DNA of 64,000 nt from Bdellovibrionales bacterium RIFCSPHIGHO2_01_FULL_40_29 (GTDB lineage: Bacteria > Bdellovibrionota > Bdellovibrionia > Bdellovibrionales > Bdellovibrionaceae): contig MEPU01000004.1 of the NCBI GenBank assembly GCA_001771815.1, positions 496,001 through 560,000 on the forward strand, read 5' to 3'. Shown piece after piece: positions 15,615 through 26,049 of this stretch. Below the pieces are notes generated by a model. That model did no database searches. It saw only the letters and a list, made by a program, of their open reading frames with translations, and was not told the DNA's origin. Position 1 is the stretch's first letter. Each line of letters starts with the position of its first letter. The position numbers were made by a program, and so were the translations under genes.

Positions 15615-17012
15615 ATGATTAAGGTATTATTAAGTATTGTCGTGCTAGCCTCAACAGCAGCCCAAGCAAACGATTTGCTTGTTAAATTAGCATCACCAAT
15701 TTCAGCAAAGAAAACAGCTGCATTGATGGCGAACAGTGGACTTAAAACAGATGTCTTAACGGACAGTTGGATTAGAGTGCAGGGAAATATCAACTCAACT
15801 TCGTTTGAGCGTTTTGCCGAAAGCAGCTCTGTTGAATACACTCAACCCAATTTTAAAATCCGCGCTTTAGAAAATCCTAACCTTGCAAAATTACGTGATG
15901 CTTACAAAGGATCACCTTCAAAAGTTTTGCCTTTTATTGGAACTGATAATCCAGAAATTCCGGGCATTCCAAGCGCTGGCTCCGGAAATGATCCTCTCTT
16001 TGCAAAACAGTGGGGAATGAAAGATATCGGAGTCGAAGCCGCTTGGAATATCCATCGCGGAACCAGCAAAATTATTGTTGCTGTTATTGATACGGGCGTT
16101 GATTACACACACGAAGATTTGTTGCCAAATATGTGGCGCAATTCAAAAGAAATTCCAAACAATAAGGTTGATGATGATGGCAATGGCTACATTGATGACG
16201 TTGTTGGCTGGGATTTCGTTTCCAACGACAACAAGCCTTATGATTTAGCCGCAACAACTGTTGGTGAATTACTCAATGGCGGAAATCCAGGACACGGAAC
16301 TCACTGTGCTGGAAACGTTGCCGCAGCTGGCATCAATGGCAAAGGTATTTCTGGCGTTGCACCTCAAGCTCAAATTATGGCTTTGCGCTTTTTAGGCAAT
16401 GAGGGCGGAACAACAGCTGATGCTGTGAAGGCCATCAAATATGCCGTCGATAATGGCGCTAAGGTTTTATCGAATTCTTGGGGATCTGAAGGCGAAGACC
16501 CAGAAGACGGCGCAAACAATTTAGCCCTTTCTGAAATTATCACGTATGCTGAGAACAAAGATGTTTTGTTTATCGCTGCGGCTGGAAATGGTCACCAGGG
16601 TAAAGGCTATAACAATGATACTGATTCTCGCCCAGGTGTTCCCGCAAGCTATAACAACGAAAATATTATTTCAGTTGCCGCACTTGATGCTTCAAACAAG
16701 TTAGGATCTTTTTCAAACTGGGGTGTAAAAACTGTTGATATTGGCGCTCCCGGAGTCAAAGTTTACTCAACGACTGTTGGAAGCAAATACTCGGATACAG
16801 TGATCGATCTTTTAGGTGCCACTTGGGATGGAACTTCAATGGCTTGCCCTCATGTTGCTGGAGCTGCTGCCCTTTACTGGTCTGCACATCCTGAGAAAAA
16901 TTGGAAAGATGTTAAAGCGGCACTTTTAAATTCAGCTCGAAGAATTCCAGCACTTGATGGAAAAGTATATTCAAACGGAAAATTAAACGTTGAAGACTTA
17001 ATGAAATACTAG
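15615..17012 (+). CDS. Exported subtilisin-like serine protease (S8)
   Basis: The protein (465 aa) is an exported endopeptidase. It has a signal peptide (1-18), an inhibitor-I9-like propeptide (about 20-84, ending VEYTQPNFKI), and a catalytic domain with Asp159 (VIDTGVD), His227 (GHGTHCAG), the oxyanion Asn in AAAGNG and Ser408 (GTSMACPHVAG). It is complete and has no C-terminal accessory domain. A longer frame starts at 15537, but ATG 15615 follows an excellent AAGGAGGGG and begins the signal peptide. A clear terminator 53 bases after the stop makes it a single-gene unit. A digestive or predatory role is plausible from context only. Confidence 0.95.
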   Translation: MIKVLLSIVVLASTAAQANDLLVKLASPISAKKTAALMANSGLKTDVLTDSWIRVQGNINSTSFERFAESSSVEYTQPNFKIRALENPNLAKLRDAYKGSPSKVLPFIGTDNPEIPGIPSAGSGNDPLFAKQWGMKDIGVEAAWNIHRGTSKIIVAVIDTGVDYTHEDLLPNMWRNSKEIPNNKVDDDGNGYIDDVVGWDFVSNDNKPYDLAATTVGELLNGGNPGHGTHCAGNVAAAGINGKGISGVAPQAQIMALRFLGNEGGTTADAVKAIKYAVDNGAKVLSNSWGSEGEDPEDGANNLALSEIITYAENKDVLFIAAAGNGHQGKGYNNDTDSRPGVPASYNNENIISVAALDASNKLGSFSNWGVKTVDIGAPGVKVYSTTVGSKYSDTVIDLLGATWDGTSMACPHVAGAAALYWSAHPEKNWKDVKAALLNSARRIPALDGKVYSNGKLNVEDLMKY

Positions 17013-17155: not shown

Positions 17156-17752
17156 ATGAATCAGTTAAAATTTCTCTTACTCTTTATTTTTGCGCTAAGC
17201 TTTTCACAAATAACTTGGGCCCAACGTGGTCAAAGCTCTAAACGCTTTACCGCTGGCGCCATGATACTTGTCGGCCAAGGCCAAATGGGAAATGGAACTG
17301 ATGTCCCAGATCGCGCCATGATGCATACACCAGTTGCATTGTTTGCCGGTTTCAATATGAAAAAATTTCGTCTGGGTATAAATTATGAGTACAATCTCGC
17401 TGGCCAGACTGCAGATCCAGCCTCTGTTTCAAATCAAAACCTTTCGGGTAAAGGTGCTGCCATGGGCGTTCGAGCAGAGTTTTATGATGGCAAGCAATCC
17501 TTTGGTTTGATTTACAGACTTTCAAACACTTACACCCTGGATAAACCCACTTTGGCGGGTGTTTCATCTACATATAAAGCTGCTGGTGGATTTTCTGTTC
17601 AGTATTATCGACAAATTAAAAAAAGATTTGGCTTTGTTGTTGATTACACCACGGAAGCTTTTACTGAGTCCGTTCCTGCCCCATCTGAGAATATCAAATG
17701 GAGCCGCATCTCTTTGGGAATAGTTTTTACAAATTTCGCCGCCTTAAAATAG
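17156..17752 (+). CDS. Exported small outer-membrane beta-barrel-like protein
   Basis: The protein (198 aa) has a signal peptide (about 1-22, TWA/QRG). Short amphipathic strands follow: FTAGAMILVGQGQ, FRLGINYEYNL, AAMGVRAEFYD and QSFGLIYRLSN. The layout, an opening glycine-rich strand, then a GxNxKxFxxGxxYxY segment, is shared with the protein at 18912-19505 on the other strand, so the two are probably distant paralogues. It converges on the propeller lipoprotein with only 12 bases between the stops. No ribosome binding site is seen. Confidence 0.72.
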   Translation: MNQLKFLLLFIFALSFSQITWAQRGQSSKRFTAGAMILVGQGQMGNGTDVPDRAMMHTPVALFAGFNMKKFRLGINYEYNLAGQTADPASVSNQNLSGKGAAMGVRAEFYDGKQSFGLIYRLSNTYTLDKPTLAGVSSTYKAAGGFSVQYYRQIKKRFGFVVDYTTEAFTESVPAPSENIKWSRISLGIVFTNFAALK

Positions 17753-17764
17753 AAAACTAATTTC

Positions 17765-18922
17765 CTACTCAACTGCCGACAACGGCACAATTGAAACCGC
17801 TCGAGGATTTGCTCCCAAAGCAATCTCGGATCCCACCATCGTGAGGGCTCCTGTTCCATCATCAATCGCATACACATAACCTTTACCATTGGTGTCGCCA
17901 GTGACCACCAAAAACTGGCTCTCAAGAGTCACTGCTAATGCATAAACACCCGCTCCCACAACTCCGGCAATTGGCGATCCCGCAATGGCTGTCAGTTGCC
18001 CATTCGTCGAATTGACACTGTAGCCACTGATCGTATTATCTGTATTATTGGAAACAAAAACATACTTTCCATTGGGTGTAATCACTATTTTCTTTGCACC
18101 GGCTCCAGTTGCTACAGAGACCGGACTCAATGGCGCCAATGCTCCACTCGTGGATATACTATGCATGATGACGGAGTTCGATCCCGGGCTAAGTGTATAA
18201 AGAAAACGCCCGCCGGGATGTATAACCAAGTCCTCTGGATTTGTACCAGCAGAAACAGACAAATCAATCGCATTTAAACTTCCAGTAACGCTATTGATTG
18301 AAAATGACGATATATCCGAAGTCCCTCGATTCACGACAAATAGAAATCGACCATCCGGAGAAATAACTAAATTTGTTGGATTCGTACGAGCCGTAAAAAA
18401 AGTATCTTCATCGACCGTCATTTCACCGGTGTCTTTATTTATTGTGCAAATACTAATGTTGTTCGTCACTGATGTTGAATTGGCAATGAAACATAAATTG
18501 CCATTAGGATGAATCTTAGTAGCCGACGAGCCTGAACCATTTGAATCCGCCAATCCAGAATAAGCAATGGAGCCTTCGGTTGCTGCGGTCAAAGGATCTA
18601 TCGAGTACCACGAAATATTATTTGAACTTTTATTTGTGGCATAAAGAAATTTTCCATCGGGACTTCCAATCAGTGAGCTGATATTTGATGTTCCAGCGCC
18701 TGTTGAAATGGTATTCGTCACAGATGTTACAGATCCATCTGATTTTAAAAAATATGAATTAATCGTACTACTCCCTAAGTTTCCAAAGTAAACAAAATTA
18801 TAGGAGTTTAAAGTTCCAGAATTGGCATGCCCATCCGATTTGCCACACCCCACATTGAATACCGAAACACTTACTACGCAAAACAATAAAACAAGCATAT
18901 GAAAAATCATTTTAGAATTCAT
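17765..18922 (-). CDS. Beta-propeller lipoprotein (lactonase/YncE-like repeats)
   Basis: The protein (385 aa) starts at ATG 18922, with GGAG before it. It has a lipoprotein signal ending in VGCGKS (lipid-modified Cys near 26). The mature part is built of about seven repeats of some 45 residues, with recurrent phrases such as SPDGRFLFVVNRG, HPGGRFLYTLSPGS and TPNGKYVFVSNNT. That is the pattern of 7-bladed propellers of the YncE and 6-phosphogluconolactonase families. No catalytic site can be claimed, and binding to a protein or polymer at the surface is more likely. Its start overlaps the upstream barrel gene by 11 bases, so the two are co-translated. Confidence 0.85.
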   Translation of the reverse strand: MNSKMIFHMLVLLFCVVSVSVFNVGCGKSDGHANSGTLNSYNFVYFGNLGSSTINSYFLKSDGSVTSVTNTISTGAGTSNISSLIGSPDGKFLYATNKSSNNISWYSIDPLTAATEGSIAYSGLADSNGSGSSATKIHPNGNLCFIANSTSVTNNISICTINKDTGEMTVDEDTFFTARTNPTNLVISPDGRFLFVVNRGTSDISSFSINSVTGSLNAIDLSVSAGTNPEDLVIHPGGRFLYTLSPGSNSVIMHSISTSGALAPLSPVSVATGAGAKKIVITPNGKYVFVSNNTDNTISGYSVNSTNGQLTAIAGSPIAGVVGAGVYALAVTLESQFLVVTGDTNGKGYVYAIDDGTGALTMVGSEIALGANPRAVSIVPLSAVE

Positions 18923-19505
18923 AGCGAACTCCAAGTCCATAATTGCCATAGTTCAACTTATCAGTCATAACTGAACTGACACCATCGACACTTTTTTCAG
19001 AAAAATCAACCGACTCGTAGAATAATCCTGGGCTGACTTTTTTGAAATTTTTGAAATTGACTGTAAATCGAAATCCACTCGGCTTTAAGTAGGTGACTTT
19101 TTTCCCATCAATTGTCGCATTCATCAAATCGTACTGACCCGAATTGATCAGCATAAATCCAAATTTCACTTTTTCAAAATTTAGTCGAACAAAAAATGAC
19201 AGTGGTGATGTGAAATTTCCACGGCGATTTCCAACTGTTGTATCAACATCGGAGTGCTGAGTTAAAATACGATAGTCATAGCCCAATCCCACACTGAATC
19301 GCTTGATATTCACACCCAATGCAACTCCTAAAGTAAAGCTACCTATGGTAGGCGACGCAGCATCTGTAGAAGTTTTTATGCTTCCATAGCCAAGCAATGC
19401 CGTCACATCAAATAAGATGCGACGCTGCTTTTTTGAAGCAGGAGCCGCCAGCAAAATCTGCGGCACCAATAGAACTAAAAAGAAAAAACTCATTTTCAAA
19501 GTCAC
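18912..19505 (-). CDS. Exported small outer-membrane beta-barrel-like protein
   Basis: The protein (197 aa) has a signal peptide (about 1-20, LLAAPAS). Strand-like segments include ILFDVTALLGYGS, FTLGVALGVNIKRFSVGLGYDYRIL and LSFFVRLNFEKVKFGFML. The C-terminus YGLGVRYEF ends in Phe, as does the beta-signal of many outer-membrane barrels. It resembles the barrel protein at 17156-17752 in length and in the IKRFSVGLGYDY segment. It lies between two propeller lipoproteins in one operon: 18 bases after one and overlapping the other by 11. Confidence 0.75.
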   Translation of the reverse strand: MTLKMSFFFLVLLVPQILLAAPASKKQRRILFDVTALLGYGSIKTSTDAASPTIGSFTLGVALGVNIKRFSVGLGYDYRILTQHSDVDTTVGNRRGNFTSPLSFFVRLNFEKVKFGFMLINSGQYDLMNATIDGKKVTYLKPSGFRFTVNFKNFKKVSPGLFYESVDFSEKSVDGVSSVMTDKLNYGNYGLGVRYEF

Positions 19506-19523
19506 GTGATCAGCTCATTTCCG

Positions 19524-20912
19524 CTAAAAAGTAATTCCAATAATTCCCGGCGAAGTGCCTACTGGATATGACGGCGTCAGTGCAGGTGTTAAAATTCCAG
19601 TTCCCAAGTCACGAATAAATACATTCACGGTATCTGCTTGTGTATTTGCGGTGAATACAAATTTTCCACTTCCTAGGATACGCACATCATTGGGCCCATC
19701 ATCACTGGACCAGTTATTGATCTCTGTCAAATTACCCGTCGTTGATGTGATGTCGTAACCAAATACTTTCCCAGTTCCTGCTTCATCATTCCCTCGAGCC
19801 GTCACATAAAGCTGTGTCCCGGTTTTATCAATTTCGACGCCAGAACCTCGACGTGCATCCGCGGTAAGATAAGTATTAATAATACTTAGGGCTCCTGTGT
19901 TCTGATCCACGGCCAACGCTGTCACGGCCCCCTTGCCACCTGTAAAAGAATTTGAGGCATTGCCAGTATAAACATATTTTCCACTAGGATGCACAGAAAT
20001 GGCATCTGGCGCATCACCACAGGAATAATTTCCGACAAACGCCAACGTGCAATTTGTTGTATTCATTGTGTAGGCGGAAATATTATCTGATCCATAGTTC
20101 GTCACAAAAACAAAGCGATTCTGCGGATCAATAGCCAAAAAACCAGCCTGTGTGCCACCAGTATAATCCGCAACTTTAACAAGGGCTCCAGTCGTCTGAT
20201 TGATTGAATAACTGGTCACAGCTGCTGAAGAAGCAGCATAAAAATTACTGGCAATTAAACATTTGCTATCTTTAGAAACTGCCACGGCGTCGACCCCTGA
20301 TCCGCCAGCAAAGGGACTTCCAGGCACGGCTGTTAAATCTCCGGTGCTGTGATTAATTGTAAAAGCGGCAATTTGATTTGCTAAAACACCAGCTGTGTAA
20401 ACCCAAGTGTTCGAGGGGTCTATTTCAACCCCGTAGGCACCATTGGGAACCGATGTCGAACCCAGCTGTGTGATGCTACCATCCGCCGAATCGATTTTCA
20501 TTTTATAGAGAAATGAAGCGCCAGACTGGTTGCTGACATAAAGAAATGAATTGTACTTAAATCCATTAAATAATGTTCCTGAAATACCTTGAGCATTAGA
20601 GACAACAACATCTACAACCGAAGCAAAATGATACGGCAAAGTACAAGTGATCTCTGTTGCACTGACAACCACAACATCCGGACAATTTGTTCCACCCACA
20701 TTGACAGAATCACCCTCGCTGAACTTTGATCCCGTTATGGTGATGGTGATTCCCCCCTTAACGCCATAAGACGTGGGCGAGATTGATTCAACAACTGGCG
20801 CATTCGCTGCCGCAGCGTCATCATCAATACCAATAGAACGTAGCTCCAAATCTTTCTGAACATTGCAGCCAATCAGACCCAATAGAAATAGAATAAAAAT
20901 TGTCAATTTCAT
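19524..20912 (-). CDS. Lipoprotein with IPT/TIG domain and beta-propeller repeats
   Basis: The protein (462 aa) starts at ATG 20912, giving a short lipoprotein signal ending LIGCNVQ (Cys near 16). An upstream ATG at 20945 is possible. Residues about 40-115 form an IPT/TIG Ig-like domain (SISPTSYGVKGGITITITGSKF, ITCTLPY). The rest holds propeller repeats like those of the neighbour (DPSNTWVYTAG, DPQNRFVFVTNYGSDN, HPSGKYVYTGNAS). IPT domains are common in surface receptors and adhesins, so an extracellular or periplasmic binding role is likely. It is the third gene of the five-gene minus-strand run, 82 bases after the VWA gene. Confidence 0.85.
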   Translation of the reverse strand: MKLTIFILFLLGLIGCNVQKDLELRSIGIDDDAAAANAPVVESISPTSYGVKGGITITITGSKFSEGDSVNVGGTNCPDVVVVSATEITCTLPYHFASVVDVVVSNAQGISGTLFNGFKYNSFLYVSNQSGASFLYKMKIDSADGSITQLGSTSVPNGAYGVEIDPSNTWVYTAGVLANQIAAFTINHSTGDLTAVPGSPFAGGSGVDAVAVSKDSKCLIASNFYAASSAAVTSYSINQTTGALVKVADYTGGTQAGFLAIDPQNRFVFVTNYGSDNISAYTMNTTNCTLAFVGNYSCGDAPDAISVHPSGKYVYTGNASNSFTGGKGAVTALAVDQNTGALSIINTYLTADARRGSGVEIDKTGTQLYVTARGNDEAGTGKVFGYDITSTTGNLTEINNWSSDDGPNDVRILGSGKFVFTANTQADTVNVFIRDLGTGILTPALTPSYPVGTSPGIIGITF

Positions 20913-20994
20913 GAAATCTTTATCGGAATAAATATTTGAAAACATAAGTTAAGAATAAGTCAAAACGACTCGTTTTAAGACATTTTTAAAATCG

Positions 20995-21996
20995 CTATGA
21001 AGCCCCAACTGGCAAGTAATCAATCTGAATACCTTCATCAGCTTTTGGAATTGATGCCCCATGAAACTTAATAAAATAAAGCATCTTGTTCTGATCATTT
21101 TTTTCAGATTCAGAAGTCCACCCATTAAGCGGATCTTCAACGATCAGTCGACCGCCCACTGAAACACGAATTGAAGCAACATTGGGTTCTGTTTTTAAGT
21201 AAAATTTTGTCAGTTGATCTACAATACGAGCTCTGATATTCGAAACGGCCAATGCTAAATCACCACTGCAAATGGACTCGATCACTCCACCGGAAGCATT
21301 CACCACTCTCAAGTAGTTTGTTCCTATGGAAACATGTCCACCCAAATTGTCACAATTTGAGTTCTGGACTGTTCCGATATAATTGGCCATCCAGGCTCGC
21401 CCACCTTCTTTGAAGTCAGGACGAAATGATTTCATATAATTTACAAAATCATTAGATCCTGTGCTGCCAAATTCACTGCTGGCATCATCTTCATCTGCTA
21501 GAAATATTGCAACAAAAAGTGCATCTTCTCGCAAGTATCCTGCAGCCTGTGTTGCTGCATAACCACTAGTGACAAAGGCCAAAGCATCCAAACCACGCTC
21601 TAGATCTGAACCGGATTCACCAACTAAAAGACGATTTGGCAATAAATTTATGTTTTGCGACGTTAAATACTTGGGCTCACCCAAAATCTGTCTGGACATC
21701 GGATATGCGGAAGTATTGGTTGTCATCGTCGTACTTGTCACCGCCACGTGATAATCCATTTTCAATGAATTCAAAGCTGAAATCATCTCGGGAATTCGTG
21801 CTGCTAACCGTTGTTGATGCTGAGTCATCGATTTTGAATTATCGATAACAAACAGGATATCGACTTTATTATTGTATGTGATCACTTGCCCAAAGCTTTG
21901 ATCCACAGAAGGCAACGCAAAGCTTGTGGGTGTGTTATCACAACCAATCTGCAACGCCGACACCATCAATGAAAAAGTGAGCAGGTAACTTTTCAC
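20995..21996 (-). CDS. Lipoprotein with von Willebrand factor A domain
   Basis: The protein (333 aa) has a lipoprotein signal (ALQIGC, Cys19). A VWA domain follows at once. The metal-ion-dependent adhesion motif D52-N-S-K-S56 (FVIDNSKSM) is intact, with later acidic text ADEDDASSEFG in place of the third MIDAS loop. The C-terminal part (about 250-333) is rich in strands (VASIRVSVGGRLIVEDPL). VWA domains bind protein ligands through the metal. Two bases separate its ATG from the stop of the PilZ gene, so the pair is probably co-translated. No transmembrane channel or MoxR-type ATPase is nearby. Confidence 0.88.
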   Translation of the reverse strand: MKSYLLTFSLMVSALQIGCDNTPTSFALPSVDQSFGQVITYNNKVDILFVIDNSKSMTQHQQRLAARIPEMISALNSLKMDYHVAVTSTTMTTNTSAYPMSRQILGEPKYLTSQNINLLPNRLLVGESGSDLERGLDALAFVTSGYAATQAAGYLREDALFVAIFLADEDDASSEFGSTGSNDFVNYMKSFRPDFKEGGRAWMANYIGTVQNSNCDNLGGHVSIGTNYLRVVNASGGVIESICSGDLALAVSNIRARIVDQLTKFYLKTEPNVASIRVSVGGRLIVEDPLNGWTSESEKNDQNKMLYFIKFHGASIPKADEGIQIDYLPVGAS

Positions 21997-21998
21997 AG

Positions 21999-22760
21999 CT
22001 AGGCCGCCTTTGCTGTGTATCTTGAAATGGAATCCTTAGCGATCGCCGAAATAGTCAGAAACTGAATGCCATACTTGTCGCCGGACTTACTTACGACCTT
22101 GCAAACAGCGTTAAATGCTGGCACTTGATCGCTTGGACGAAAATGCACATAGAGCTCTTGATCAATTGAAAAGTTTATATTTGTAACTGTCAATCCAGCA
22201 CCGCCAGCACTAATTTCCATGCTTTCAGCTTTAAAAACTTTTTTCCGATCATGCACAACAAGCGAACTGCTATAATGTGCTCGCGCATGACGACGGCGAA
22301 AAAATATTTCACCATCCTGATCACCATCCCATGAATGATATAATGATTTAATTTGCTCAGGACTAAATTCTGGAATCTCAGCTAATCGTTTCCAAGAATC
22401 TTGATCTTTACGCCAAACAAAGTCGTACTCGAATAATGTTTTGCTTTGAAGCATTTGAATCATTTCATTTTTCGAGAATGGTCCATAGTTATTGTTCTGT
22501 TTTAAAATATACCAGGCTCGATCTTTTTCTGGATCGGCAATGGCTTTTACTTTCCTAGGTTCAACAATTGGATTCTTAAAACTTTTATTAAAAGACTCAG
22601 TCAGCGCAGAAAATTCCAATAACAAAACCCAGTCTTCGGTCTTTTGATCATAAATATAATCGTTCCAACCCAGCTCTTTTGAGGCTAGCTTGAGTGAAAT
22701 TTCTGACAATTCCCATGGCCCTTTTTGAATGCCATTATGAGCGACGTAATATTTTTCCAT
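21999..22760 (-). CDS. GYF_2-GYF_2-PilZ protein, probable c-di-GMP receptor
   Basis: The protein (253 aa) is cytoplasmic. Two GYF_2 (DUF4339) modules are visible: residues 2-50 (YYVAHNGIQKGPWELSEI) and 82-130 (WYILKQNNNYGPFSKNEM). A PilZ domain (about 150-250) follows, with the arginine motif RRRHAR (155-160) and the second motif EISAGGAG (182-189), where Glu replaces the usual Asp/Asn. This suggests c-di-GMP binding, slightly off consensus. It heads the run of surface proteins (VWA, TIG/propeller, barrel, propeller) and may link the second messenger to them. A long-range inverted repeat CACGC (22771-22775) / GCGTG (22804-22808) lies in its leader. Confidence 0.88.
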   Translation of the reverse strand: MEKYYVAHNGIQKGPWELSEISLKLASKELGWNDYIYDQKTEDWVLLLEFSALTESFNKSFKNPIVEPRKVKAIADPEKDRAWYILKQNNNYGPFSKNEMIQMLQSKTLFEYDFVWRKDQDSWKRLAEIPEFSPEQIKSLYHSWDGDQDGEIFFRRRHARAHYSSSLVVHDRKKVFKAESMEISAGGAGLTVTNINFSIDQELYVHFRPSDQVPAFNAVCKVVSKSGDKYGIQFLTISAIAKDSISRYTAKAA

Positions 22761-22871: not shown

Positions 22872-23270
22872 TTAACCGTTAAAATCCAGGACCTTTTGCC
22901 ACTCGGGCGATGGCGTGATCAATCTTCGTGTTTTTAAATCAAAAAAGCCAACAACCAGGTCCAGTTCACAGCCAACTTGGCCATCTTCTTTAAACATGGT
23001 CTGTTTAATTCGAGAAATTTTTCGCTCTTGAGTGATACCCATCAATCTGATCGTTACCATTTCACGCAAAGTGACTTCTTTTAAAAACTTCATTCCAATT
23101 TCTAAAATAACAGGGCCCTTACCCGAATCATGCACAGCTTGATACCCATAACCTTGCTGAGTGCTCATTTCCCAACGAGCCTCTTCGAACAATGTCAGGT
23201 AAGTGGCATTGTTCACATGCCCATAAGAATCTAAATGCTGTTCGCGGATTAAAATTTTATATTCAAACAT
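22872..23270 (-). CDS. Acyl-CoA thioesterase, hotdog fold (4HBT)
   Basis: The protein (132 aa) is a single hotdog domain. The signature DSYGHVNNATYLTLFEEARW (residues 13-32) is the YbgC/4HBT type, with the Asp-x-x-Gly-His-Val-Asn-Asn core. It probably cleaves acyl-CoA or acyl-ACP; the chain length is unknown. An upstream extension to 23318 is open, but ATG 23270 forms a TAATG junction with the permease stop, which is typical coupling. Its place after an ABC importer for a phosphorus compound is odd and not explained. Confidence 0.85.
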   Translation of the reverse strand: MFEYKILIREQHLDSYGHVNNATYLTLFEEARWEMSTQQGYGYQAVHDSGKGPVILEIGMKFLKEVTLREMVTIRLMGITQERKISRIKQTMFKEDGQVGCELDLVVGFFDLKTRRLITPSPEWQKVLDFNG

Positions 23271-24301
23271 TATTTCAGAGCTTCCCGAATATACGCAGAG
23301 GCCTGGTCCATAATCCAAACAACGGCAGCAATCACCACGATGATTGTTCCCACTTCAGGCCACATGGCTTGACCTTGATACTTGATCAGCATAGTACCAA
23401 TTCCACCACCACCGACCAAGCCGATGATTGTTGCCATACGAACATTGATATCCCAACGATAAACAGTAAATGAAATATACGGCAGAATAACCTGAGGAAC
23501 GATCGCGAACCAAATGGTCTGCAGCTTATTAGCCCCGCATGACTGAACGCCTTCAATTGGTCCTTCATAAACGGTCTCTACCATCTCAGAGTATTGCTTG
23601 GTCAATGAAGCAATTGAATGAATCATCAATGCGAGCATACCCGCAAAAGGCCCTATTCCCACCCAAACTGAAAATATAATGGCCCAAACTAAGGCCTCTA
23701 CAGATCGGGTCACATTCAAAAATGTTCGAATAAATAGATAAACTCCAAATGAAACTGGACCACGCATAATGTTCTTGGCTGCCATAAAGCTCAGGATAAA
23801 TGCAAAGGGAATAGCCAACATTGTAGCCAAAAAAGCCATAAAAATAGTTTCAATAATATTTAAAACGGCAGCCGGCAAGACACCCCAATTAGGATTAAAA
23901 ATACCAGCAAATAATCGTTTCGCACCCTCGAAACCGTCTTCGTCCAATAACTCAATAATTGAAAATTGAGTTTTACTAAGACCAACAACAAATAAAACAA
24001 TCAAGGTCACAATAAAATGCCAGCCCCAAAATGTTCGGTAAATCGGCTTGGCTTCAGCCTTGGCTTTTTCATAATCAGGCTCAAAAAGATTTTGGCCCAA
24101 TGTTTTAATTCCAAAAATGGAGTTCAGAAGATGACTCAGCATCGCTCCAAAAACCATCAAGGCTAAAAATAAAAATGAATTGAACTTTAAATTCATGAGT
24201 TGTTCTGTTGTTGGATCAACAACAATTGAAATAAGAACTAATCCAAGAACAGTTACGGTGATTCCATCTAAAATTGAACGGCGAACGATATTACCCTTCA
24301 T
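23270..24301 (-). CDS. phnE: ABC transporter permease, PhnE type
   Basis: The protein (343 aa) has about six to seven hydrophobic segments and the BPD permease loop (EAA-like region near MVETVYEGPIEGVQSCGANKLQTI) that contacts the ATPase. It follows phnC by 27 bases and ends at the start of the thioesterase. ATG 24301 (MKGNIVRRS) is preceded by GGGAGAG; an upstream start at 24322 is less likely. In the known family it imports phosphonate, phosphite or related compounds. Confidence 0.9.
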   Translation of the reverse strand: MKGNIVRRSILDGITVTVLGLVLISIVVDPTTEQLMNLKFNSFLFLALMVFGAMLSHLLNSIFGIKTLGQNLFEPDYEKAKAEAKPIYRTFWGWHFIVTLIVLFVVGLSKTQFSIIELLDEDGFEGAKRLFAGIFNPNWGVLPAAVLNIIETIFMAFLATMLAIPFAFILSFMAAKNIMRGPVSFGVYLFIRTFLNVTRSVEALVWAIIFSVWVGIGPFAGMLALMIHSIASLTKQYSEMVETVYEGPIEGVQSCGANKLQTIWFAIVPQVILPYISFTVYRWDINVRMATIIGLVGGGGIGTMLIKYQGQAMWPEVGTIIVVIAAVVWIMDQASAYIREALK

Positions 24302-24328
24302 AGGCGAACTCTCTCCCAGCAATTACAA

Positions 24329-25102
24329 TTAATTGATATGAACTTCTTTGGCACCTTCGCCATAAATTTTCTCGAACCAGGCTTGATCAATATTCTTTGG
24401 ATCACCTTCATAAACCAACTCACCGCCCTTTAAAGCAATCACTCGAGTGGCATATATTCGCACCAAAGACAAAAAGTGCAAATTGCAAATAATAGTAATT
24501 CCAAGCTCTTGATTTACTTTTCGCAGATAATCCATAACAACATGACATGTTGCCGGATCTAATGAGGCAACTGGTTCATCTGCCAACAAAACTTCAGGAT
24601 TTTGGGTTAATGCCCGAGCAATCGCAACACGCTGTTGCTGACCGCCCGAGAGTTGATCCGCACGAATATGAGCTTTCTCAGAGATACCAACCAGTTTTAA
24701 ATATTTAAGTGCATCGGCCTTATCGCCTTCTGAAAAAAGGCCAAATAAGCTTTTCCATGTTGATGTGTAGGCCAATTTTCCGACCAACACATTTCCCAAA
24801 ACCGTATGCCGAGGGATTAAATTGAAATGTTGAAAGATCATCCCAATGCGTTTACGTAGCGAACGCACCTCTGAAGTTGTTTGCAATTTTGCTGCATCAA
24901 CTCCATTGAATACAATTTCGCCACTGGTTGGATCATGAAGTCGATTAATACAACGAAGTAAAGTCGATTTACCAGACCCACTCAATCCAATTACAACTAG
25001 AAATTCACCTTTTTTAACATCAAAACTGACCCCCTTGAGAGCTTGCACCCCATTTGGATAAGTCTTGATTAAATTTCTAATCTTTAAAACGGGTTCACTC
25101 AT
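24329..25102 (-). CDS. phnC: ABC transporter ATP-binding protein, PhnC type
   Basis: The protein (257 aa) powers the importer. Walker A is GLSGSGKST, the Q-loop lies near IFQHFNLI, the signature is LSGGQQQRVAIARAL, Walker B with catalytic Glu is LLADEPVASLD, and the switch His is in CNLHFLSL. Length and sequence style are those of PhnC. It lies 23 bases after phnD. Confidence 0.93.
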   Translation of the reverse strand: MSEPVLKIRNLIKTYPNGVQALKGVSFDVKKGEFLVVIGLSGSGKSTLLRCINRLHDPTSGEIVFNGVDAAKLQTTSEVRSLRKRIGMIFQHFNLIPRHTVLGNVLVGKLAYTSTWKSLFGLFSEGDKADALKYLKLVGISEKAHIRADQLSGGQQQRVAIARALTQNPEVLLADEPVASLDPATCHVVMDYLRKVNQELGITIICNLHFLSLVRIYATRVIALKGGELVYEGDPKNIDQAWFEKIYGEGAKEVHIN

Positions 25103-25125
25103 TGAGACCTCTCAATCAAAAAGAA

Positions 25126-26049
25126 CTATTTTTTCATAAAATCAGAAGCGTCTTTACCCAAAGTCTTCAACATCATACGCACAGATTCATAATCTGCATC
25201 AGTTGCTTTCTTAAGATCTGTAACACCGTAGATAGCTTTGAAAGCGTCTTTTCCTTCTGGAGTTCCGACGAAGCTCATCATCGTGTCGATGATTTTTGCT
25301 TTCATTTCTTCTGGCATTTCTTTACGGAAAATAATGGGATCGTTTGGAATTGGCTCAGACAAAGAAATAATAGCCACTTTTTGCTCAACATCTGGATACT
25401 GTGTTTTTACAAGACGACGAGCATCTTCAATTTGGCTGACACCTTTATCATCTTTAGATGCTGGTGAGTAAAATGTCGCTCCGGCATCAACCTGACCCTG
25501 GTAAACCATAGATACAACATTGTCGTGTTTTTGCGCGAACATTGTTTCCTTTGGTTCAATCTTTTTGTCTTTCAATGTTTTCAATGGAAGTAAATAACCA
25601 GAAGTTGATGCAGCATCAACAAAGGCAATTTTTTTACCAGCAAGATCTTCAATTGTTTTAATACCGCTATCCGCTTTTGCGATGAACTGAGATTGATATG
25701 TTGAAGCTCCATGGCGCAAAACTGTTAAGCGAGCTTCCGCTTGGTATTTATCATGAGCCAATACGTATCCAAATGTATTGATGGCAGCAACATCTGCGCG
25801 TTTTGTACCGAATGCTTCGACCACAGCAACAAATGATTGTGGAATTGTTACTTCATACTTGTACGGTGTGTTTTTCTCTAAGTACTCTTTGAATTTAGCC
25901 GAATTATCTTCAATTACTTTTGCATCCACTGAAGGAACAAAATGAAGTTTAATTGGATTCTCAGCAGTTCCTAGTTCCGCTGTTTTTTTGGTGCAACCAA
26001 CAAACACTAACGCCGAAGCAACGATCGCGGACAAAACTAACTTTTTCAT
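25126..26049 (-). CDS. phnD: Phosphonate/phosphite-type substrate-binding lipoprotein, PhnD type
   Basis: The protein (307 aa) is the periplasmic binding component. Its lipoprotein signal ends FVGCTKK (Cys19), so it is anchored. The PhnD-type text LHFVPSVDAKVIEDNSAKF near the N-terminus and GKKIAFVDAASTSGYLLPL mid-protein are visible. The latter contains the Ser/Thr loop that in relatives holds the phosphorus group. No C-P lyase or phosphite dehydrogenase gene is nearby, so the ligand is open. AAAGGGG precedes the ATG. It is first in the phnD-C-E-thioesterase operon. Confidence 0.92.
   Translation of the reverse strand: MKKLVLSAIVASALVFVGCTKKTAELGTAENPIKLHFVPSVDAKVIEDNSAKFKEYLEKNTPYKYEVTIPQSFVAVVEAFGTKRADVAAINTFGYVLAHDKYQAEARLTVLRHGASTYQSQFIAKADSGIKTIEDLAGKKIAFVDAASTSGYLLPLKTLKDKKIEPKETMFAQKHDNVVSMVYQGQVDAGATFYSPASKDDKGVSQIEDARRLVKTQYPDVEQKVAIISLSEPIPNDPIIFRKEMPEEMKAKIIDTMMSFVGTPEGKDAFKAIYGVTDLKKATDADYESVRMMLKTLGKDASDFMKK

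Follow-up and report, generated by a model that had tools for sequence, protein, structure and literature searches.

PilZ proteins of the YcgR/MotI type act on MotA-type stators, and GYF domains, as known from eukaryotes, bind proline-rich or similar peptides. To our knowledge, no PilZ protein has been described as a structural part of the Agl-Glt gliding machinery. In Bdellovibrio, the cyclase Bd0367 makes 3',3'-cGAMP and c-di-GMP, is needed for gliding, and controls both gliding and exit from prey. Four MIDAS proteins, including Bd3132, were reportedly tested by Tyson et al. The Agl-Glt system of Myxococcus xanthus has the VWA adhesins CglB and CglD. Its outer adhesin is CglB (PMC13104615). 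In strain HD100, the gliding operon (Bd1473-1483) carries a PilZ gene, Bd1482, at its 5' end (PMC3271064), and transposon insertions in Bd1481 (aglR) and in the VWA gene Bd1483 impair biofilm predation (PMC2277423). The locus considered here encodes the same two protein types, a PilZ protein and a VWA lipoprotein, as an adjacent pair separate from the motor.

Five open reading frames follow one another on the minus strand at positions 17765-22760 of the window, the whole 64,000-nucleotide stretch of DNA that was analysed. Their order, junctions and domains are as given in the preliminary description. Gene 1 (21999..22760, 253 aa) encodes two GYF_2 domains (E 4.8e-22) and a PilZ domain (1.5e-13), and is separated by 2 bases from gene 2 (20995..21996, 333 aa), which encodes a VWA lipoprotein recognized from its motifs and AlphaFold model. 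After a gap of 82 bases (20913..20994, minus strand), gene 3 (19524..20912, ATG at 20912) encodes a lipoprotein with a TIG domain (6.8e-14) and a lactonase-type propeller (2.8e-37). Gene 4 (18912..19505), 18 bases further on, encodes a small secreted all-beta protein, and gene 5 (17765..18922, ATG at 18922), overlapping it by 11 bases, encodes a second lactonase-type propeller lipoprotein (5.5e-37). Copies of both propeller genes occur in another genome of the genus (G001). Gene 4 probably encodes an outer-membrane barrel, a plausible but unproven reading: the model contains eight long strands, a C-terminal Phe is present and a close relative occurs in G001, but there is no family match and the model is poor (pLDDT 54). 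Genes 1 and 2 are an ancient conserved pair (hereafter pair A), and genes 3-5 (propeller-barrel-propeller) are a separate, rarely shared insert downstream of it. Genes 1 and 2 are probably the orphaned head of an Agl-Glt operon, consisting of a cyclic-dinucleotide-responsive coupler and an integrin-like adhesin, with genes 3-5 as a distinct cassette.

The VWA domain of gene 2 scores under the Pfam cut-offs, and a PDB sequence search with the protein gave no matches. Its AlphaFold model, built from 39 sequences (pLDDT 90.4), has structural matches among integrin beta-I domains (for 6om1, 193 residues align at rmsd 3.1 with Z 14.5), and several of the structure alignments extend over a flanking small beta domain. 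The MIDAS motif D52-N-S-K-S (DxSxS) is conserved at 100/95/89% for D52/S54/S56. A hydrophobic leader and a lipid-attachment cysteine, Cys19, invariant in 38/38 sequences, form a lipoprotein signal, with the slightly atypical lipobox QIGC in the window's protein. These features suggest an integrin-like adhesin that is probably exposed at the cell surface and would contribute adhesion in gliding. A described adhesin, Bd0875, likewise has a lipobox and carries its MIDAS VWA domain within a small beta domain, and gene 2 matches the corresponding family NF052240 (74.9 bits, E 6.4e-21). It was rejected as a Bd0875 equivalog, being far under the 700-bit cut-off that Bd0875 itself exceeds (730.6 bits). 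Against M. xanthus CglD, the window's protein scores 30 bits, with a cut-off of 400 bits.

Conservation of pair A was assessed in relatives of the same order, several of whose genomes are incomplete, at 52 loci centred on the GYF-GYF-PilZ orthologue. A VWA gene directly follows the PilZ gene on the same strand in 39/52 loci, one of them a contig-edge fragment and three of them found by tblastn instead of the ORF caller, and the junction is often a 4-base stop/start overlap. In one clade of congeners (G002, which is B. exovorus, G005, G008 and G012), the VWA gene of pair A has been lost and the PilZ gene kept; therefore, the PilZ protein fulfils a role even where this adhesin is missing. Strict co-loss of VWA and motor was not observed: G008 and G012 lack this VWA gene yet retain the motor operon described below. 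Upstream of the PilZ gene, genes for a 4HBT thioesterase and a phnE-phnC-phnD ABC transporter (22872-26049, minus strand) are found at this place across much of the order, in many genomes and also in families with gliding-operon genes after the pair.

The genes around the pair differ between families. Outside the family of the window's genome, the pair A PilZ orthologue, whether accompanied by the VWA gene or not, lies alongside AglR/AglQ/AglS and/or a GltD-like TPR protein and GltG in 17/18 loci, compared with 0/34 loci within that family (Fisher p 8e-13, uncorrected for shared ancestry; linkage scored within ~9 kb on each side). The complete order PilZ-VWA-AglR-AglQ-AglS-TPR-GltG occurs in five loci (L066, L072, L076, L077 and L098), and seven have motor-operon genes after PilZ with the VWA gene absent. 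Within the window's family, the motor is accompanied by a paralogous pair (pair B), in which a VWA gene and a single-GYF PilZ gene are followed by AglR, AglQ, AglS, a long TPR protein and GltG. Pair B is present in all genomes of this family examined except B. exovorus, and VWA, PilZ and motor genes occur together in 22/25 loci, including one in the window's own genome (G000:C4:272780-281601); the identity of GltG was confirmed by NCBIfam. There is roughly one AglR of this type per genome, and it adjoins a GYF-PilZ gene in most genomes with checkable context, G051 and G055 being exceptions. As pair A accompanies the motor in other families, and is apart from it in this one, where the motor sits with pair B, it is best described as an orphaned operon head; the PilZ proteins of pairs A and B form separate clades, in a tree that does not separate relocation of the motor from loss of one copy. 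Because pair A is unlinked from the motor in the window's family, any present-day partnership between them is indirect. B. exovorus retains both GYF-PilZ genes (L123, G002:C1:885000-900500, and L048) and has lost both neighbouring VWA genes; its locus B has also lost the AglRQS-TPR-GltG genes, and no close AglR was found elsewhere in that genome.

Comparison with the two described gliding systems clarifies what is shared. The HD100 pair Bd1482-Bd1483 combines the same two protein types with AglRQS, TPR and GltG, but has a single GYF domain, places the VWA gene first, remains attached to the motor and belongs to the separate PilZ clade. The M. xanthus Agl-Glt system has homologues of AglRQS and GltG and a VWA lipoprotein as an outer-surface part, whereas in the order studied here the motor genes are accompanied by those for the adhesin and the regulator. 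The recurring PilZ-VWA-AglRQS-GltG order marks a motor, a family of adhesins and a family of regulators as components of a single machine. For Bdellovibrio gliding, the pair is a good candidate for the control and adhesion components that are still missing. The preliminary suggestion of a functional link between a PilZ protein and exported binding proteins is supported for genes 1 and 2 only, which are paired throughout the order and lead Agl-Glt operons in families other than the window's.

For pair A, binding of cyclic dinucleotides and of the motor is predicted. The GYF-PilZ protein would reside in the cytoplasm, where its GYF domains may bind partners on AglRQS/Glt; no proline-rich GYF ligand is evident among the Agl operon proteins. 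AglR is a MotA/ExbB homologue, and a GYF-PilZ protein on the cytoplasmic side of AglRQS/Glt could change motor activity with the cyclic-dinucleotide level. The VWA lipoprotein would be carried to the outer membrane and there provide a metal-dependent, integrin-like grip on a surface or prey, through which motor force would become gliding. The GYF-PilZ proteins are also candidate receivers of the cyclic dinucleotide that Bd0367 makes. In its most specific form, put forward tentatively and somewhat doubtful as a whole, this proposal makes the GYF-PilZ proteins the receivers by which 3',3'-cGAMP or c-di-GMP from Bd0367 switches the gliding motor, a cytoplasmic clutch on AglRQS, encoded with an integrin-like surface-gripping adhesin, with a variant motif (E/S for D/N) that sets nucleotide preference.

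The same motif bears on a variant of the orphaned-head explanation, with which its probability overlaps, namely that the PilZ domain has lost nucleotide binding, with the GYF-PilZ protein serving the motor as a constitutive scaffold. The RxxxR motif of pair A (R156 and R160) is present in 50/50 sequences. Its second motif, E182-x-S184-x-x-G187, departs from the canonical [D/N]xSxxG: the first position is E in 45, Q in four and L in one of the 50 sequences, the Ser is kept in 42/50 and the final Gly in 50/50, and in pair B the first position is S (21/24) or N. Glu in place of the canonical Asp or Asn renders nucleotide binding by the pair A protein uncertain, and such replacements in both pairs are what a scaffold would lead one to expect. 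However, the invariant RxxxR and the largely retained Ser and Gly speak against loss of binding. So does M. xanthus PixB, which lacks the conserved Ser of the motif and yet binds c-di-GMP (PMC8316039). A constitutive scaffold is a reading of low probability.

The HD100 counterparts of pair A bear on an alternative role in contact with prey. They lie at 3007909-3009749, encode orthologous GYF-GYF-PilZ and VWA proteins in the same order, and are syntenic with phnCDE and the 4HBT gene, but lack the propeller-barrel cassette. CdgA, which is Bd3125 (PMC3271064), lies ~20 kb beyond the pair, and no PilZ gene other than that of the pair occurs from 2.80 to 3.04 Mb; the pair is therefore identified as Bd3100/Bd3099, numbers given by position and the unique PilZ gene instead of annotation. 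The same two observations exclude Bd3132 as the counterpart of gene 2. Bd3099, the VWA gene, has previously been counted as a gliding gene (PMC9140294), which qualifies the earlier statement that the locus belongs to no described system. Transcripts of bd3099 are reported to be lower in mutants of the cyclase Bd0367 and to be induced on surfaces alongside the gliding gene aglQ (bd1480), an induction seen by RT-PCR only (PMC9140294). Bd3100 is listed as pilZ, and its expression drops after attack phase (PMC2797640). This last pattern would suit a prey- or surface-contact module, in which the VWA protein is an attachment adhesin like Bd0875, the PilZ protein tunes its export or expression in attack phase, and the motor linkage is ancestral and now non-functional. 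The resemblance of gene 2 to the Bd0875 family and the lack of motor genes beside the pair in all 34 loci of the window's family point the same way. Such a module is nevertheless unlikely, given the wide shortfall from the NF052240 cut-off that Bd0875 passes, the co-regulation of bd3099 with aglQ on surfaces and the paralogous pair that these genomes still carry in their motor operon; an orphaned Agl-Glt operon head accounts better for these observations.

That all five genes form one operon for a cyclic-dinucleotide-regulated surface complex, as the preliminary description proposed from their shared strand, small gaps and the predicted export of all four downstream products, is very improbable, as the cassette is distributed independently of the pair, an outcome that the same description had named beforehand as refuting it. 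It occurs in only 2/14 congeners, the window's genome included, and the conserved order of PilZ, VWA, TIG-propeller and barrel genes sought in a neighbourhood comparison is absent from relatives, the pair being kept without the cassette throughout the order. In the second congener, G001, the cassette stands alone on a separate contig (L092, G001:C101; TIG-propeller 63% and second propeller 53% identical), and the PilZ-VWA pair lies elsewhere without it; the cassette barrel has a close relative in this genome only (52%). The closest relative of the window's genome, G010, has the pair and different genes in place of the cassette. In the PilZ tree, the two genomes with the cassette do not group as sisters, and the cassette was therefore likely gained by transfer or repeatedly lost. 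These comparisons place the likely module boundary in the 82-base gap, which contains no terminator-grade fold (z +1.29), a point in favour of a single operon. Within the gap, a perfect inverted repeat, AAAACGA-G-TCGTTTT (20962-20976, minus strand), precedes the cassette, and is absent from the stretch upstream of the G001 cassette.

Across the genus, the interval between the VWA gene and a neighbouring subtilase gene is variable, being empty or holding a barrel gene, a barrel gene followed by a TIG-propeller gene on the opposite strand, an XRE-type gene, or the cassette. In the window, the secreted subtilase (15615-17012, plus strand), found near this site in most congeners, converges on the pair alongside a small barrel gene (17156-17752, plus strand) that is paralogous to gene 4, convergent on gene 5 and absent from the preliminary description. 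This convergent barrel is unlikely to be a partner of the VWA protein, because it persists where the VWA gene has been lost. In several congeners, it is followed on the same strand by a TIG-propeller gene. A unit of a small barrel gene and then a TIG-propeller lipoprotein gene recurs at several chromosomal sites in the genus (for example, L093:6552-8633 and L042:10051-12197), and the two products possibly form a surface pair of their own.
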